Shown here in pieces: positions 7,572 through 27,204 of a DNA stretch of 64,000 bases. The stretch covers positions 17,464,518-17,528,517 of the forward strand of contig NC_087377.1 of assembly GCF_963675165.1 (NCBI RefSeq), in the 5' to 3' direction. Below the pieces are notes generated by a model. It saw only the letters and a program-made list of their open reading frames with translations. It did not search any database and was not told where the DNA came from. Position 1 is the stretch's first letter, and each line of letters begins with the position of its first letter. The translations under genes and the position numbers were made by a program. This stretch comes from Halichondria panicea. Its lineage: Eukaryota > Porifera > Demospongiae > Suberitida > Halichondriidae.

Positions 7572-9502
7572 TCAAACAGCAAAAGCGGCAAAGTCGTTGG
7601 CAAAATTAATCTTGTCTTGAGCTGTTTTGGTACCCTTAGGCTTGCTTCGATAGTACGGGGACTTGTTAATCCTCAGCTTTTTCTGCTTGACCTTTGCTTG
7701 GGTCAACTCCCCAGGATATAGCTCTCCATTGGACTGCAACAAAGTGAGGTCTATAGGAGTGAACAGCTCATAATCCTGAGGCATGTAGAAGGTGACTGTT
7801 CGAGCAGCAAGGTCAGTGTCAGCTCCAATATCCGACTCTTTCTGGTGTGTAGCCTCGATTATATCATCAAGGTCTTTCTGAGTTACAGTGGCTCCAGGTG
7901 GGATATGCACAGTGAAAGTTGTTGGATCTTGCAACCTGTACGCTCTTGGTTCAATCACTTCAACCAAGGCATACCTCAAATCCAGTAATGCCTTTGTTTG
8001 ATCGTCTATATCACGCTTACCCTGATAGGATTGAGTCAAAGGTCCACAATATCCTCTCACAGTCATAGTGAAGTCATGATTGGCAAGCACATTTTTCAGT
8101 GGTTTAGACCAGATGTATTTCTCGAGGTTGTTGTAGTGTGGGCTTGCAGGGATGGCGTTGGCATACTGGTCTCCTGCGTTAGCACCCCCTCTACTAGGGC
8201 ACAAGTGATAGGATACTTCTGATTCCCTAGGATCCGGATTTAAACGGCTTATCATGCCCACCACTGCCTTAGTATGCCAGCAACGCATGCCAGCGGCATC
8301 TACTAGGTTGAGATTATCCATCGTAACTTTAAATTCGGACAGCCGAGCATCTGTTTCTTGAACAACATTCTTACTGTCGACAGTGAGGTTTTTGTTATAT
8401 CTTCTCCAAGCCTTGCACTTGATAGTGTTGACTTGCTCATACATAGTAAAAATCGTATCTCCCTTCACTGCTTGCTTGTAGAAGCCATCCAGAACTTTAG
8501 TTTTATGATTTGGTGGTCCGGCTCCTATCATGGCGAATCGATTGCCTCTGCGCAGATTATCCATCTGTACTCTAAGCTTGATATGTTCGGCAAACTTACC
8601 GGGCTCATTTGTGATGTCAGTAACAACAGTCTGCCTCAATTTAGCAGCCTCTTGTTTGAGTTGTGAGCGTGAGAGGCTGGGGTCTCGTGAGAAGGCATAG
8701 GCGTGGAACAAACAATTGCTCTGGTCTGCTTCAACCCTCCTCCGAACTCCACTGATCAAGACATCATAATGACCCACTGAATTGGGATCCGGCGGAGGGA
8801 TATACACTAACTCAATCTCATCGTGCGTCTTCTTATTTGACGGATTTATAGAGCTGTCTTTGACTAGCTTTCCATTTTTCTCAGTAAAAATGGTGACCTT
8901 CTGGCCGTAGTGCTCGGCAGCTACTCTCAGTTCCATCAGAGACCCAGGAGTATCCGAGCTGGCTATCTCCTTGGCGTAGAGCTTGGCCACTTTTATGTTA
9001 TTTACAGGTCCGGCCCCAGATGTGTCAAAACTAACTGCACGTATATAATTGGCATGCTGCATACTCTTGAGATCTTGTATAGTGTTGTCTGTCTTGAGTA
9101 TGTACTTCCCCACGACTTTGTTTGTCAAGCGGCCGACTTTGTTCGTCATTGTATACTGGTTGACAAGTGGGCGCAGTTTTCCCTGCAAAAGAATTGCAAC
9201 TGCATTGGCAAAGACATCTCCAACGTGATCAGCGAGATCGCTCTTGAATTTTCTAGCACAGCTGTAGCCTCTGTATGGATCAGCTGATTTGCTGGACATT
9301 ATGATCTTCTGATCTGTAATGAATTGCCGACAAACATCCTCCATCTTCGTGGGAAACTCATCGACAAGAAAACTCAAGCTTGCCACAGTGTCGGTCACAA
9401 TTGTCAAAACGATGGCAGATTGTGCAAGATTTGCAATCCCTCTCAACTGCTTACTCTTCTGTGAAAGCTGCGAGAAAAACTGAGAGACGTTGTAGCTAGT
9501 CA
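7572..9502 (-). CDS. Second frame of the SecA-like unit: permuted OTU-like and nuclease-like regions
   Basis: An open frame of about 640 codons with no intron. It overlaps the stop of the SecA-like frame by GTGA, shifted by one base. It has no ATG at its very start, so in a eukaryote it is either the continuation of the upstream protein after a frameshift or it starts at an internal ATG. Around residues 195-265 it shows LMELRVAAEHYGQKVTIF, then IELVYIPPPDPNSVGHYDVL, then EADQSNCLFHAYAF and a helix KQEAAKLRQTVV. These resemble the C-terminal half (His-Tyr-Asp) and then the N-terminal half (Asp-x3-Cys) of an OTU cysteine protease, in swapped order. OTU enzymes cleave ubiquitin chains. Further on, CPSRGGANAGDQYANAIPAS and YNNLEKYIW recall DNA/RNA non-specific endonuclease-type folds, weakly. 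Function is unproven. Confidence 0.6.
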
Positions 9503-19099: not shown

Positions 19100-19659
19100 C
19101 TCTTCAATAGGCCTTGCCCAATTATGTTAGCATAATTTTGAGACTAATAGGAGTGGAGCATTGAGCATTATGACAACCTAATCCTATTAGGCAATTTTTA
19201 CCAAATTTTGGTAGAAAGTATATGATTTTATAGAAGCACTATAGCCTCAATAATGAGTATGCTAATACTGAGTATATACGTATGGAAGGTGCTATATAGT
19301 CAGTGCTACTAGATCAGTTAATTCTTCTCTAAGATTTCTTTCACCAATAATTATAGTTCCTTAGAAAATTATGTAGAAACGTCTGTGATGTTGTAATATA
19401 ATTCTCGTTGATGATTTTTATTGAGACTAATGGGTAATAATTAAAGAACACATTCACTGTTAAAAGTTCCCTTTCTCTTTTGCAGATCAGAATAGAATTC
19501 ACTGTTTTATTAGTGAGTGACATGCACTCTGACCTTAGAAATGTTTTCATTGACTTGTCGTGTAAGTTTAATAGCACTAACTGACAATTGAAGAATCATT
19601 TCTTCCTGACAGTTGTTCCATACTGGTCATTAGTGCTATCATACCAAGCGAGGTACGGT

Positions 19660-19660
<1 letters not shown>

Positions 19661-19702
<42 letters not shown>
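19661..19702. repeat. TG microsatellite
   Basis: A run of about 20 TG units immediately after the last copy of the complex repeat. Confidence 0.95.
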
Positions 19703-19705
<3 letters not shown>

Positions 19706-20440
19706 CTATTTCAGGTGCTCAAGGATCAATGAAGTGCAAGTAAGAGTTTCTATAGGCTTCTAGTAATGTTTTCTTGGCATGCTATTTGTGAATTTGCAAA
19801 ATAAAGCTTTGTTCTCGAGTTATGCCTAGTTTTGCTTACTTGGAATGCCATTGCAGCCTTTTCAGAAGAGTCCGTAGCAAAACTTGTTCACCGAGTGTTG
19901 CTACTCTACTTAGTAGTTAGCTCTACACTAGAACGCTAGCTATTGGTAGCTGCAAGAGTGAGAAGAGAGCTGCAAAGCTCTGCTGACTTGCAGCCATTAA
20001 TTTTAGACTTGAATTTTTGGCTTCGATCGTTTTTAACAACAATAATGGTCGATCATTACCCCCTACTTGAGTTTCCCTGTGATTGCAATGCAGCAAAATT
20101 ATCATCATGATAATTATAATCAATGTGTGTATAAAAGCTAGCTAGTAGTTTTATGTTATGTAGCTTTGGCACCTCCACCAGACATCAGCACCCGCGGTGC
20201 TTTCATTAGTTAAGTGAAACAAAAATTGTTAGATTTTTTGTCTATTTGTAAATCTTATCTGCATTGTTATGCATTGTTATGTTATTGTTGTATTCCATGA
20301 TTGTGTTAACTTGTTTTTATTGACTCTGTTTAGCATACTAGATTTGGAGAAGCTAACAGAGATATATTTTGTATCACGATAAACAGAATGAAATATACAC
20401 AACATTAGGTGTTACTTTGCTTTAGCTCTTGGTATACACT
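19703..20440. other. Intergenic with interspersed repeat
   Basis: The part at 19840-19990 (tgctactctacttagtag, agctattggtagctgcaaga) is shared in diverged form with 58850-58955, so it is a dispersed repeat. No exon was recognised. Confidence 0.5.
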
Positions 20441-20442
20441 CT

Positions 20443-20813
20443 TTATTGTCTTTTCGTACGTAGATGACCGGTGGATGTCAACTGGAAATCGTACAAGAGT
20501 ATTGAGGATTTCGTGACTGAATCTTCCCACTCAATTCGCTTCCTCTTGTTTTCTGGATCCTGTCTTTTTGCCACTCCTCTCCATTTGCTGTTGTATTTCC
20601 CTTCCATCCAGACAACTCCTACCTCTGAATATGAGATCGATCGAACTTGAGCAATCCATGGCTTGATGTTACTGCTTGGACAGCTTCTGACTGCCAGCAA
20701 CTGATCATTCTTGAGACCTGCTAAATCCTGCACCTCCCTAACGTCTGTCCGTGATTGCTTTCGGTAGGCCCCAGTGTACACCTGTATGACATTGAATTTG
20801 AAGGTAGATACCA
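20443..20813 (-). CDS. Exon-like open frame, unknown domain
   Basis: About 123 codons on the minus strand from an ATG at about 20813 (MVSTFKFNVIQVYTG), ending GHLRTKRQ and a stop. It is rich in aromatic and charged residues, with VGVVWMEGKYNSKW, RIEWEDSV and SSILLYDFQLTSTGH, and reads like a folded domain rather than noise. I do not recognise the family. It may be the last exon of a gene or a transposon-encoded domain. The neighbouring methyltransferase-like fragment is on the opposite strand. Confidence 0.4.
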
Positions 20814-20961
20814 TGTGAAGCAAAGCAACCTAAATTTAGGAAGCCTACTCAGTGACCTAAATTTAGAGATGGTATAATTTTTGTGTGTGCACACATGTGA
20901 TCTAAATTTAGGGAATTGTGTGTATATATACTTAATTATGTAATTATCGTACATAACTATG

Positions 20962-21233
20962 AGGCCATGCACTCCAAGTGATACTCTGGTTTCTGGTCCA
21001 CCGCCTGCATCAGATTTTATTCTTGGATTTCTATCTCATTATTGGATTTCTATCTCATTATTTCTACTACGCATGCGCAGAATGGTCCATGTGGTACAAA
21101 AATAAATAGTGTGATAACGATATTCATTTGCAAAATAGTGAAATTGATAATGACATAATGAGAAAAGCCGCCCGCCCGCATGCAATTAGAAAAACTTCAG
21201 GACCAGAAACCAGAGTGTCACTTGGAGTGGCCT
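20962..21233. mobile_element. MITE, 272 bp
   Basis: aggccatgcactccaagtga, then ctctggtttctggtcc, on the left pairs with ggaccagaaaccagag, then tgtcacttggagtggcct, on the right. The terminal AGGCCACTCCAA motif is shared with the element at 54144-54456, so both belong to one family. Confidence 0.85.
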
Positions 21234-21261
21234 AAACATAATAATTATTATACAGCCCATA

Positions 21262-22134
21262 ACATTATTGTTATATAGGTGGCTTAGATTCCACTCATCC
21301 ACTGGGATTTATCCCATCAATTGGATGTGTGGTAGTGGGACACTACTCACTCAGTGGAAAGCTGGAGGAGGACCACTTTAACTTCGTTGAGGAAGGGCGG
21401 TCCAATTTCTTCCCCTGTATTGATCAATCCACTGCTAAGATTCCGATTTGTGTGCTGACAGCCATTATAAAGAAGCTGTCTTTTGAAGGGAGCACTGTTA
21501 TTGATGCCACAAGTGAATCTGGTAAGATTGTAATTATTATAGGATGACAGTGCATGCATGATTACTATTTTATACCCACCATGATTGTATTTATATACTG
21601 ATGTACAAACAACTATGGACCACCTGCCATGATAGTCAGATAGTTTCGGCCTTATTGGGCCTCATCAGCATAGTGTAGTTGTATGTAATAAGTACATGTA
21701 ATAAGATTACATGCATATATACATGCATAATATTATACATGCAATAGTGCATGGGGAATGTATGCATGCACATGTACACAAGTAGAGTATGCATGCAGTT
21801 TACCTAAATTTAGGTATTATTATAATGCAACTGTCTCTAAATTTAGGTACAACGTACAAAGTCAATGGTACATGTATACCTAAATTTAGGTAGAATTGCA
21901 TAACACATCGTTTCATGCATGCATGCAGGTAACTGTGCAATCGCCTCACTACAAGCAGGAAGAGATGTGGTGGTACTCAAGGCATTGGCCCAATTAAGCA
22001 GCACTTGCAAGAAGCCAGCTTGTAGAACTGTCAACAACATAGCTAGCTATGGACTAGACTATAGACTATACTGTTTCAAGCGTTCCATTAACTTCTATAT
22101 ATTACTTTGTATATGCCGAGTATATACGACTTGA
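21262..22134 (+). pseudogene. Beta-class DNA methyltransferase-like C-terminal fragment, two exons
   Basis: Exon 1 runs from about 21268 (after ttatatag) to 21521 (donor gtaagat) and exon 2 starts at 21929 (after gcatgcag). The junction is in phase. The join reads STAKIPICVLTAIIKKLSFE, then GSTVIDATSESG|NCAIASL, then QAGRDVVVLKALAQL. This matches the TxKP, helix, VxDxxxGSG, A-x-xxGR series (motifs X and I) at the end of beta-class N4-cytosine/N6-adenine methyltransferases. The GSG loop is ESG, and the acidic residue expected after the next strand is replaced by KAL, so catalysis is doubtful. No upstream DPPY exon was found. It could be a truncated gene, a transposon-borne domain or a decayed copy. 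Confidence 0.45.
21605..21685 (-). ncRNA. Type I hammerhead ribozyme
   Basis: On the minus strand all conserved core parts occur in order: stem I 5' arm CTATG (21673-21669), core CTGATGA (21668-21662), stem II GGCC-CAATAA-GGCC, core GAAA, stem III of eight pairs (ACTATCTG with CAGGTGGT, two G-U) closed by a 10-base loop, the cleavage triplet GTC (21620-21618), then stem I 3' arm CATAG (21617-21613). Stem I can continue beyond an internal loop (ACAA / TTGT). Cleavage is predicted between 21618 and 21617. Hammerheads self-cleave by transesterification. In animals they occur in retrozymes, Penelope-like elements and satellites. This one lies antisense in an intron of the methyltransferase-like fragment. 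Confidence 0.9.
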
Positions 22135-22139
22135 TCTTC

Positions 22140-23050
22140 ATCTTATTGAATGTTCATCTGATTAAGCAAGTCAATGGGTATCAATAGAAAATAAATGGTG
22201 TTCTCTAATCTTTGAGAAATTAACAGGGATATTAAACTAAAAAAATGATTATGAACAAAAAACATAGCATATTAAAATAAAAGAGAAAAAGAACTTTTAT
22301 AACAGTGAATGTACATGTGTTAAAGACTAATTGGTAAGAATTGAAGAATAATAGGTACAATGCATGAGACTTGAAGACTAGACTAATAGGCAAAATTTTG
22401 AGCATAATTAAGCGATTTTTGGTGTTTTGTGACTTTTTGTGGTTTTATTAAAGGTCAGCATAAAATCGATTTGGTGGCCTAATTTTATATGCAGTAATAC
22501 TAGTGTTATAAGATAAAGGCCTCCACTGCAGGCTGCATGTATGCATGTATAGTAGTGATCACAGTGCTATATTTATTGATGGCCTCTATATAACCACAGG
22601 TCGATTAGGACCATTTCATTGTAATTTGAACTCATATTTAGAATTTAGCAATGTTGGCCCAATACCAAAAAATGACAAACATGAAGAATTGTGGGTCGAG
22701 TGTGGGTCGAGAATACAAATAATTATAAAGGACAAGGAAATTGCATGTACCAAGTACGCATTAATATGTTTTGGCAGTGATAACTGATTCTTTTTTGCTA
22801 TTTTCAACTCCCATATAAATGCGTGCATACACACTTTGCTAGCCTCGGTCCCAGGCCGATTTTTAATAGTAGGAGACCTAGCGTTCAATTGGAGACGGAT
22901 CGGCCTGGGATCGAGGCTAATGCTTTCATGCATGGCAACTGATACATTTCTGCTGGCCAGTAGACTCTCTAGAGCAGAGAGTGACAATTTTCAAATAGTT
23001 ATGTTTCAGTAGATCTAGCTACATGTACATGTAGCTACATAATTTCAACT
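22140..23050. other. Intergenic, one MITE, no gene recognised
   Basis: AT-rich sequence. A hairpin MITE lies at 22840-22919. Near 23015-23040 there is a self-complementary ctagctacatgtacatgtagctac run. Confidence 0.5.
22840..22919. mobile_element. MITE of the TAGCCTCGTTCCCAGGCCGAT family
   Basis: tagcctcggtcccaggccga on the left mirrors tcggcctgggatcgaggcta on the right. Further members or relics of this family lie at 27364-27466, 38835-38952, 48810-48927 and 61958-62013, and a lone end at about 621-643. Confidence 0.9.
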
Positions 23051-23076: not shown

Positions 23077-23989
23077 ATGATCAGACAAGTCAGACTATTG
23101 ACCAAGCCTCTGCTGTTTTGCAATCAATTAAAGACAGTCACAGGAAAACCATTTAATTTACTGCAAAGTGCAAGACTCTTGAGCTACTGCAATGAAGAAC
23201 CACTGAGTATAATAACAAGTCTCCACAGCATTACCAGCAGTACTTGAGGGACAAAGGAGCCGTATTAAACAAACTCCTGACTTCTCCAAATCGATTCCAA
23301 AAGATTACAAATCGTGAAGATCGCTCCGATTACCCCCTAGAGGCATTGATATAGCTCAAGGCAAAGGCAAATACTTGATGCAACACAGGGGGTGCTCTAT
23401 CCTAAAAGGAGCCGATGATATGGTGATTTTTCACGAGCTCTTCTGGAGATTACGACCAGCTACGGTAATTGAGCTGGGCACATTTACTGGAGGATCTGCA
23501 GTGTGGATGGCGGATATGCTGCGACTCATGGAGGTAGACAGTACCATTTATTCCATGGACATCGAACTGTCTAATCTGGAAGAGAGAGTGAAAGAAATAA
23601 AACCGAGCAATGTACATTTCTTTGAGGGGAACAGCTATGAAATCGAGAAAACATTCACTTCTGAAATGCTCCAATCTCTTCCCCACCCTTGGCTAGTAAT
23701 TGAAGACGCCCACACAAACATCAATGGAATAATGAACCACTTTGGCTCGTATATGAAGACAGGTGACTACTTTATCATCAAGGATGTCCATCCTAACTTA
23801 CCCCGTGATATCGGTAAAGATGGATCCATTTACGGAGATGATTTCGAAACCATTGGCCCCTCGGCCATTATAGAAATGAAGAAGTTTCTCAGCCAACATG
23901 CTAACGAATATGCAGTAGATTCATTTTATACTGATTTCTTTGGTTACAATGGAACATGGAATATGCACGGATATATTAGAAAAATGTAA
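23077..23989 (+). pseudogene. CmcI/cephalosporin hydroxylase-family methyltransferase-like, two frame breaks
   Basis: An intact block from 23330 to 23989 reads YLMQHRGCSILKGADDMV, then RPATVIELGTFTGGSAVWMA, WLVIEDAHTN, DYFIIKDVHPNLPR and YGYNGTWNMHGYIRKM-like end. The E-x-G-T-xxGGSA glycine loop and the IEDAH and KDVHP motifs are typical of the CmcI/rhamnosyl O-methyltransferase SAM-binding family, common in bacteria. Upstream the similarity continues in other frames: LRDKGAVLNKLLTSPNRF to YPLEAL (frame of 23241), then an ATG-initiated MIRQVRLLTKPLLFCNQ (23077). Each change is equivalent to one lost base (near 23225-23240 and 23345-23350). It could be a recently broken gene or carry assembly indels. 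The ATG at 23378 could start a shorter product. Confidence 0.65.
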
Positions 23990-25746: not shown

Positions 25747-26070
25747 ATTGCCTATGATACTGATCACCCGAGTGACGTAGCATCTACTGAGCTTCAGTGG
25801 CTGATAACGGCGAGGTCTAACCAAGATGGCCCTGCAGAGGACGATCCTAAATGTCTCGACACACAATTGAATGAGAAATTGATAACCTTTTGAGAACGGA
25901 GAGAGCAGATCTGTAGCAAAGAGTGGTCATTAAATGGCTGCCACGTTGGGTATGGTGTTTCTAATTGAAGCACATTTATTCAAGTGCGCATTATCAAGAA
26001 ACGCATAATTATTACTCAGACAAGTACACTATAGTTTCATTCATTTACTCACTCTCCTGAAGACTATACT
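25747..26070. promoter_or_regulatory. Divergent promoter region REXO2 / CTU1
   Basis: About 320 bp separates the two start codons on opposite strands. The REXO2-side sequence also has an open frame up to a stop near 25935, so part of it may be REXO2 5' UTR or leader. No specific element was recognised. Confidence 0.4.
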
Positions 26071-27204
26071 ATGCCAGTATTATGTGCTGTGTGCTCTACT
26101 AACAATGCTGCTCTGAAGAGGCCCAAAACTGGACAAGTCATTTGTAAAGAATGCTTCTACGCAGCCTTCGAAGATGAAGTCCATCGCACTATTGTTACAC
26201 ACCAACTATTCAGCCCTGGAGAGACGATAGCTATTGGAGCATCGGGAGGAAAAGACTCGACTGTGCTGGCTCATATCATGAAGACACTCAACGATAGACA
26301 TAGTTACGGTCTGAACCTTATACTCCTCTCGATTGACGAAGGGATCACCGGTTACCGTGACGATTCCTTGGAGACGGTGAAACGAAATCAAGTCCAGTAC
26401 GACTTACCGCTGAAGGTTCTCTCATACAAGGAACTCTATGGATGGACTATGGACGCTATTGTACAACAAATAGGAATGAAAAACAATTGTACTTTCTGTG
26501 GCGTGTTTAGACGACAAGCGTTGGACCGAGGAGCCATGGGTCTAAAGGTCGACAAGATAGTGACTGGACACAACGCTGACGATATTGCCGAGACTGTACT
26601 CATGAATATACTGAGAGGAGATATTGCTCGACTTAGACGCTGTACCGCTATCACCACGGGAACGGAGGGGGCCATACCACGCTCGAAGCCATTCAAATAC
26701 ACCTACGAGAAAGAAATTGTTATGTACGCTTATTTTAAGAAACTGGACTACTTTTCCACCGAGTGTGTGTACTCACCCAACGCGTACAGAGGCCACGCTC
26801 GGGCCTATCTCAAAGATCTGGAATCAATCCGTCCGAGTGCTATTATCGATATTATCCATTCCGGGGACAGCCTGTCTGTGAAATCCGATGTTAAAATGCC
26901 CATACAAGGAACGTGCAGTCGCTGTGGTTACATCTCAAGCCAAGAGCTCTGCAAAGCTTGCATTCTATTGGAGGGATTAAATCGAGGTTTGCCTAAACTA
27001 GGGATTGGCAAAGTGTCAGGGAGCACCCTCTCCTCGCATATACGAAAGATGGAGCTGAAAGAAACGGATGATCAATCTTCAGAGAGTTGCTCGTGTGCTG
27101 GGGAGGAAGGAAACAAAGAAGGGAACAAAGATGGCTGCTGCTCTGGAGAAAGAACTGTTAGCAGTGTCACAGTAGGTGATAGCAAACACCTGCTGGACTT
27201 TTAA
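26071..27204 (+). CDS. CTU1: Cytosolic tRNA 2-thiolation protein 1 (CTU1/NCS6)
   Basis: One exon of 377 codons from ATG at 26071. CTU1 with CTU2 thiolates the wobble uridine of Lys, Glu and Gln tRNAs (mcm5s2U34) using sulfur relayed by URM1. Visible are the N-terminal zinc-binding CAVC ... CKEC, the PP-loop ATPase motif ASGGKDS near residue 57, the CTFCGVFRR cysteine pair, the [14 protein letters not shown] motif and the C-terminal zinc ribbon CSRCGY ... LCKAC followed by GLPKLGIG. The tail is rich in Cys, Glu and Lys and lineage-specific. Length and motifs are complete. Fragments of its last 90 or so codons head later duplication blocks (38372 and 63257). Confidence 0.96.

Follow-up and report, generated by a model that had tools for sequence, protein, structure and literature searches.

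On its minus strand, the 64,000-nt stretch of Halichondria panicea DNA analyzed here (the window) carries at 21606–21682 a complete type I hammerhead ribozyme with an open stem I, a 4-bp stem II and an 8-bp stem III, and every part named in the first-pass annotation, which had read such a ribozyme on this strand, is present in the sequence. Stem I pairs CTATG (21673–21669) with CATAG (21617–21613) and is extended by ACAA/TTGT pairing beyond a 5-nt bulge, CTACA. Stem II is GGCC/GGCC with the loop CAATAA, the core CTGATGA lies at 21662–21668, and the core GAAA lies at 21644–21647 with its last A paired within stem III, where two of the 8 bp are G-U pairs. The motif has the core CUGANGA..GAAA..NUH and the three helices with stem I open that define a type I hammerhead, and by eye the stem I bulge CTACA and loop II CAATAA resemble known type I contact partners. 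From the GTC triplet and the position of stem I, self-cleavage is predicted at 21617–21618 (minus), with C17 at 21618 and the next base at 21617. Scans of the window with a pattern, with model R1 and with a structural descriptor found this one hammerhead and no tandem partner.

The ribozyme sits inside a copy of a non-autonomous TIR DNA transposon of 2,875 bp (19447–22321), and the earlier statement that no mobile element is obvious around it was wrong. On the ribozyme side, the TIR (22287–22321, minus) is diverged and its inner edge is approximate; on the other side, the 35-nt TIR (AACACATTCACTGTTAAAAGTTCC..., 19447–19481, plus) matches the opposite end of the full element at 97% in inverted orientation, and the target-site duplication AAAG is found at 19443–19446 and 22322–22325. 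The copy is collinear with positions 1–1097 and 7791–8573 of the full element, with the middle deleted and with two inserts, namely a MITE-like one at the deletion junction (20929–21232), unaligned to the full element and with inverted ends by eye, and a second stretch that the alignment shows to be missing from the full element (19521–20204). In what follows, C1, C3, C16 and the like are contigs of the genome (G000), and L001, L032 and the like are fetched stretches.

The gene fragment around the ribozyme belongs to the transposon and is part of an accessory gene, gene1, of which one exon lies at 21279–21521 (plus), followed by a GT-AG intron at 21522–21928 that holds the ribozyme in antisense and by the last exon, as open in the window, at 21929–22134. 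The exons rest on their ORFs and on splice signals read by eye, and the intron on its splice signals and the frame across the junction, also by eye, which supports the antisense intronic position originally given for the ribozyme. A query typed from the gene1 exons matched the window and five other copies at 92–94%. A Pfam search found no family for gene1, and the methyltransferase-like label that these exons had received comes down to a likeness by eye. On the same strand as the ribozyme, 20443–20829 is a C-terminal remnant of a DUF7869 gene (DNA match 94%) that is near-identical, by eye, to L032:1606–2052, the last ORF of at least 90 aa on the ribozyme strand. The DUF7869 domain itself is deleted from the window copy, which encodes this downstream remnant only; it is a deletion derivative and not an autonomous member. 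The palindrome CCTAAATTTAGG occurs at 20829–20840, 21803–21814 and 21879–21890 of the window and recurs in introns and spacers, and also in a related transposon end on C6. Elsewhere in the window are a CmcI/rhamnosyl O-methyltransferase-like gene (23318–23989, plus; PF04989, 2e-19) and a PP-loop gene (26035–27204, plus; PF16503 and PF01171), presumably for a tRNA thiolation enzyme.

Full DUF7869 transposons of this kind (family A) are 8.6–11.2 kb long, and the window copy is an internally deleted version. The full elements at C11:2900100–2911263 and C12:5015753–5024325 are 99.9% identical, with a 2.6-kb insert in the former, and two further elements on C8 have 9.8 kb between their inverted repeats. 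Full family A elements have AACACATTCACTGTTAAAAGTTCC inverted repeats at both ends, and a clean 4-bp target-site duplication is present in four of the five copies checked (window AAAG, C11 ATAG, C12 ATAT, C8:3308877 AAGA), with the fifth, C8:5623577, fitting only with one base of slack. On the ribozyme strand of the C12 element (L032), DUF7869 is matched over two ORFs (1.2e-30 and 8.3e-26), which presumably are exons, and the protein would be the transposase; gene1 lies on the opposite strand, and its last intron holds the ribozyme. No reverse transcriptase was found among the 8 of 13 L032 ORFs of at least 90 aa that were scanned (2 of them as their L002 copies), and on these ORFs the element does not belong with the Penelope-like elements.

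All six full-length matches of the ribozyme-side transposon end contain the ribozyme (window, C3, C8 twice, C11 and C12), and stretches L001–L006 have about 1.1 kb or more around it in common. A seventh, partial end (C6:1188925) is without the ribozyme, but it is a broken relic whose intron is interrupted by other DNA. The other transposon end occurs at 99% identity at C1:7053674 and C1:9676671 and at 90–91% in two C5 copies, and no ribozyme end was found for these. Four homologues of gene1 have no hammerhead in the 3.5–5 kb around each, which fits a later gain of the ribozyme, but weakly, because the homologues are distant (35–53% protein identity). At about position 2229 of L004 (C3:1893844–1893846), two family A ends abut with one base between the inverted repeats, a layout that would fit the junction of an excised circle or two elements placed head to tail. 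Seven places in C13:5504397–5982395 also have the 23-nt sequence of the transposon's terminus, with up to 2 mismatches; in two of these (L053 and L054) the transposon body is unmatched bar one weak 53-nt match, so that another repeat would seem to share this end.

Further copies, for which the first-pass annotation had proposed a genome search, were found with a 34-letter core pattern that allowed up to 3 mismatches: it matched 16 places genome-wide, all with 0 mismatches, and its reversed control matched none, although only copies D and E are independent of it because it was written from the other 14. These 16 intact copies amount to 8 distinct ribozyme sequences, and ten of them lie outside family A, six in the pairs of family B, two in the pair of family C, and D and E. 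The three family B loci have same-strand hammerhead pairs 840, 818 and 841 bp apart within a segment of about 8 kb that is present three times, and the B unit is in part a dispersed repeat whose other copies, among the matches listed, are without the ribozyme part. Family C is a single same-strand pair 531 bp apart. The anticipated pairing of ribozymes thus exists on the same strand, but not at the 150–400 bp that had been suggested for it. The dispersed repeat (L007:1204–1489) has an inner palindrome and dozens of copies listed, with the best 40 of 740 candidates scored, and it stops roughly 20 nt or less from the 5′ boundary of the ribozyme in family B.

D is a single ribozyme that follows, at a distance of about 0.7 kb, a long ORF encoding a Pif1 helicase and an endonuclease domain, the domain pair of Helentrons, and E is a single ribozyme in a relative of D; the two are alike upstream and diverge 11 nt behind the ribozyme match. 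The surroundings of the D ribozyme share no 12-mer, direct or inverted, with upstream D. The Helentron-like element in L046 and L044 (C1:13257–13265 kb) has two long ORFs, of 881 and 1707 codons, that overlap in different frames and, by eye, an OTU-like start. Around the ribozyme, the alignable length is 88 nt between A and D, 105 nt between B and D, 75–81 nt between C and D and 82–83 nt between A and B; families A, B, C and D/E have these 75–105 nt in common, and the remaining matches between loci resemble dispersed repeats. A decayed seventeenth copy (L012:1488–1561, C1:8147813) is 90.7% identical to the window copy over 43 nt of its 5′ half; model R1 gives it 29.5 bits, and as judged by eye it has lost stem I and the cleavage triplet.

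The structural descriptor was composed after the motif was known and asks for a 5-bp stem I, CTGANGA, a stem II of 4 bp or more, GAAA, a stem III of 6 bp or more and H at 17. It matched the window once and had no match on either strand of 594 Mb simulated with a first-order Markov model, which bears out the original judgment that a chance match is very unlikely. The loose pattern CTGATGA..GAAA alone is not significant, with 1 match in the window against 1.8 expected. Nothing in the window passed the Rfam gathering cut-offs; searching 501 nt with an E-value threshold, we obtained as the best Rfam match RF02275, Hammerhead_HH9, at 21595–21686 (42.3 bits, E 1.6e-9), below its cut-off of 52. Genome-wide, with 58 of 9,483 candidates scored and a limit of E up to 10, the window ribozyme was the best HH9 match (E 9.7e-8) among the 15 listed, all of which were under the cut-off; matches 2–12 were accepted on sequence and not on score, and matches 13–15 are two C10 type III repeats and C9:2565685. 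The weak HH9 matches mean little, because a search at E up to 10 rings in 11 of 14 control genomes. RF00163, Hammerhead_1, had no match in the genome, a silence that carries no information because the same search found nothing in any of its 14 control genomes. Model R1, whose training set includes the window copy itself, gives 105.5 bits at 21606–21681. A covariance score below threshold had been named at the outset as grounds for dismissing the ribozyme, and taken literally this is what Rfam returned (42.3 against 52 bits for HH9), but in our judgment more weight belongs to the E-value and the chance estimate, together with the 16 intact copies in the genome and the compensatory changes described below. 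The pattern CTGATGAGN{8,16}CGAAA gave 35 matches against 26 in its reversed control and is therefore mostly background. The core pattern had no match in viral contigs, and a match in a Bacteroidia MAG was rejected as being, by eye, without stem I or NUH.

The minus strand folds slightly better than dinucleotide shuffles in what is a weak test (z −1.56, 18 of 200 shuffles as good). Its minimum-energy fold (−20.7 kcal/mol) retains stems II and III and has stem I in the register ACAACTA/TAGTTGT instead of CTATG/CATAG; the hammerhead fold has −16.2 kcal/mol, and computed without tertiary contacts the native stem I pairs have a probability of about 0.24. Tertiary loop contacts, described as general for type I, would be expected to aid the hammerhead fold (PMC6155905). 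Every one of the 8 distinct copies has a Watson-Crick pair at the native position 11-76 (A-U in 5, G-C in 3), whereas at the alternative position 6-76 six of them have a Watson-Crick pair and two have G-U, and the hammerhead register is therefore favored a little. The ambiguity, by which 21669–21682 could pair with 21609–21617 through either ACAACTA or CTATG against CATAGTTGT, is kept in the other copies and could switch the ribozyme off.

Among the 8 distinct copies, with L012 left out, 19 of 76 ungapped columns are variable as against 0 of 12 core columns (P 0.023), a comparison in which searches that require the core are biased toward unchanged cores; the six fixed bases of CTGATGA are invariant and its position 7 varies. 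Stem pairing is kept in 159 of 160 cells (27–45% in slid controls), and the stems covary, with two pairs changed on both sides: 11-76 (A-U/G-C, 3 copies) and 24-31 (C-G/U-A, 1 copy). Of 500 shuffles, one was as high on each of three measures (paired cells, cells with changes on both sides, covariation score), all of which the kinship of the copies inflates; 113 were as high for the number of pairs changed on both sides and 434 for further pair types. Within family A, substitutions number 3 in 77 for the ribozyme and 15 in 309 for the intron (Fisher p 0.5); the ribozyme is not slower than the intron, and this family alone gives no sign of selection on it. Gap columns there number 0 in the ribozyme and 64 in the flanking intron, by itself no test, and the penultimate gene1 exon has 2 differences in 246 between the window and the other copies, against the 15 in 309 of the ribozyme intron. 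In family B, 0 of 79 ribozyme columns vary as compared with 16 of 354 downstream (one-sided p 0.037, uncorrected), an identity that gene conversion could also produce and that leaves our weighing of the explanations as it was. The two units of a B pair differ by 2.3–4.2% downstream, and first units are most like first units, which makes the pair older than the loci themselves.

That the motif is a chance or dead lookalike of a hammerhead is highly improbable: it scores under the Rfam gathering cut-off, the competing fold has −20.7 against −16.2 kcal/mol and a decayed copy, L012, exists, but the descriptor found nothing in 594 Mb of simulated sequence, and 159 of 160 cells are paired over the 8 distinct copies with two pairs changed on both sides. 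It is unlikely, too, that the ribozyme is a working part of the DNA transposons that trims the transposon's RNA from the sense strand (on the 5′ side of the DUF7869 gene for family A, on the 3′ side of the Rep-helicase ORF for the Helentron-like D) or whose hairpins double as a Helentron 3′ terminator; hairpin terminators are described for Helitrons (PMC4778049). Such a role would be consistent with the location of the ribozyme on the main-ORF strand in both element types, with the D–E homology that stops 11 nt past the ribozyme match, with the unchanged core and the compensatory changes, and with the invariant B ribozymes next to variable downstream sequence. Against it, the family A ribozyme changes no slower than its intron, the two C1 and two C5 copies of the other transposon end have no ribozyme end found, and five other loci partly matching the segment behind the D ORF have no R1 match. 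In addition, the likeness of D and B continues for 24 nt past the ribozyme match, a longer stretch than that of D and E, so the D–E edge, seen in two copies, does not have to mark the end of the element. We hold it to be quite doubtful that one hammerhead lineage is kept active as a functional part in at least two unrelated kinds of DNA transposon, as a eukaryotic counterpart of IStrons, where it might serve RNA processing of the transposon or form the 3′ terminal structure of a Helentron.

A small probability likewise goes to the ribozyme being a relic of a retrozyme or a Penelope-like retroelement, in which a dimer would have given rise to circular RNA and this to reverse transcripts, with family A as a truncated monomer. 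The same-strand pairs of families B and C (818–841 and 531 bp) point in this direction, as do reports that animal type I hammerheads lie mostly in tandem repeats (PMC7229834) and that schistosomes have a SINE-like hammerhead element (PMC8490949). However, these spacings are outside the reported 150–450 bp, the B pairs lie in a thrice-repeated segment of about 8 kb and their unit includes an unrelated dispersed repeat, no target-site duplication or retroelement edge is seen at the 75–105-nt unit, and no reverse transcriptase occurs among the scanned ORFs, which come from loci other than those of family B. The copies found number 17, a lower bound because the searches reach near relatives only. 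In the window, the single hammerhead without a tandem partner gives no support to the earlier proposal of a small circular-RNA retroposon remnant, and pairs are found only elsewhere; a retrozyme-like dimer as the donor is plausible.

We favor, with moderate confidence, the reading that a structurally complete and probably competent hammerhead rides as a passenger on a TIR DNA transposon. The full-length ribozyme-side ends of family A carry the ribozyme and the element families share the ribozyme region only, which supports this passenger reading. Closely similar motifs in other, unrelated repeats of the genome suggest that DNA transposons, not a usual vehicle for hammerheads, spread this ribozyme; its presence at the window locus would be due to the DNA transposon that carried it there. 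The ribozyme may have entered the accessory-gene intron, in antisense, before the transposon amplified, and would since have been copied through DNA transposition, with the window copy an apparently old, internally deleted derivative. The unit moving between element families would be approximately the ribozyme itself (75–105 nt), and the likely donor a dimeric, retrozyme-like or Helentron-borne copy. A minus-strand transcript (the DUF7869 strand) would be cut at 21618/21617, leaving a 2′,3′-cyclic phosphate and a 5′-hydroxyl. The motif, the transposon, its copies and the kept pairing are direct observations, from which we infer ribozyme activity, transcription and the direction of transfer, as well as the lack of a role. 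Passenger status alone leaves unexplained the intact core in 16 of the 17 copies, found though these were by searches that favor intact cores, and the identical B ribozymes with differing flanks.

HH9 stems from amniote introns, and it is among the known hammerheads nearest to ours, being the best Rfam match and having a similar loop II (CCAAUAAG / CCAAAAAG) and an intronic location. The ribozyme described here differs from it in scoring below 52 bits, in its several copies, in its 8-bp stem III and in lying antisense in a transposon gene rather than in sense orientation in the intron of a host gene; amniote intronic type I hammerheads form a described class (PMC6155905). With the metazoan retrozymes (PMC7229834) it has in common the type I fold, a stem I bulge with loop II and, at some loci, same-strand pairs. 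Retrozymes are described as tandem repeats of 150–450 bp (PMC7229834), whereas the window copy is single and DNA-transposon-borne, with 17 copies found, the pairs are 531 and 818–841 bp apart and the 64-kb window holds no tandem repeat of the motif. Penelope-like elements and Terminons (PMC7229834, PMC6431247) are also mobile elements with type I hammerheads, and the Terminon hammerhead is reported to occupy the 3′ end, a position somewhat like the one it has in the Helentron-like D and E; our carriers, in contrast, are a DUF7869 TIR transposon and a Pif1/endonuclease Helentron-like element with no reverse transcriptase among the scanned ORFs, and stem III has 8 bp, not the minimal form. IStrons (PMC4227781) are likewise described as having a ribozyme aboard a DNA transposon, but theirs is a self-splicing group I intron in bacteria, and ours is a hammerhead of the self-cleaving type in a genome with spliced genes.

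For the animal hammerheads covered in PMC7229834 and PMC6155905, the main explanations so far are retrozymes, Penelope-like elements and satellites, along with a few introns that were co-opted, and the DNA-transposon match W16.2 is not listed among the four hammerhead families in PMC8490949. In the open-licence papers surveyed, we found no description of a hammerhead in a TIR DNA transposon or a Helentron, and nothing on DUF7869. If the passenger reading is true, DNA transposons join the vehicles of ribozymes, and there is a route by which isolated intronic hammerheads could arise. Activity and constraint can be compared across the 16 intact copies, which comprise 8 distinct sequences within a single genome.

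Hammerheads of another type are present in the same genome. Three type III hammerheads lie within about 67 kb of one contig, at C10:2046567, 2094855 and 2113816 (L028:1493–1564, L029:1493–1568 and L030:1493–1564, all minus), each with stem III open, a GTA triplet and the stem II GTTCT/AGAAC, in a 125–143-bp repeat, and all three pass a type III descriptor. Type III hammerheads are usual for plants rather than animals. At C16:2894468 (L055:120–320) there is, by eye, a possible further type I hammerhead, whose stem III is long and interrupted and whose stem I is GTGCAG/CTGCAC.
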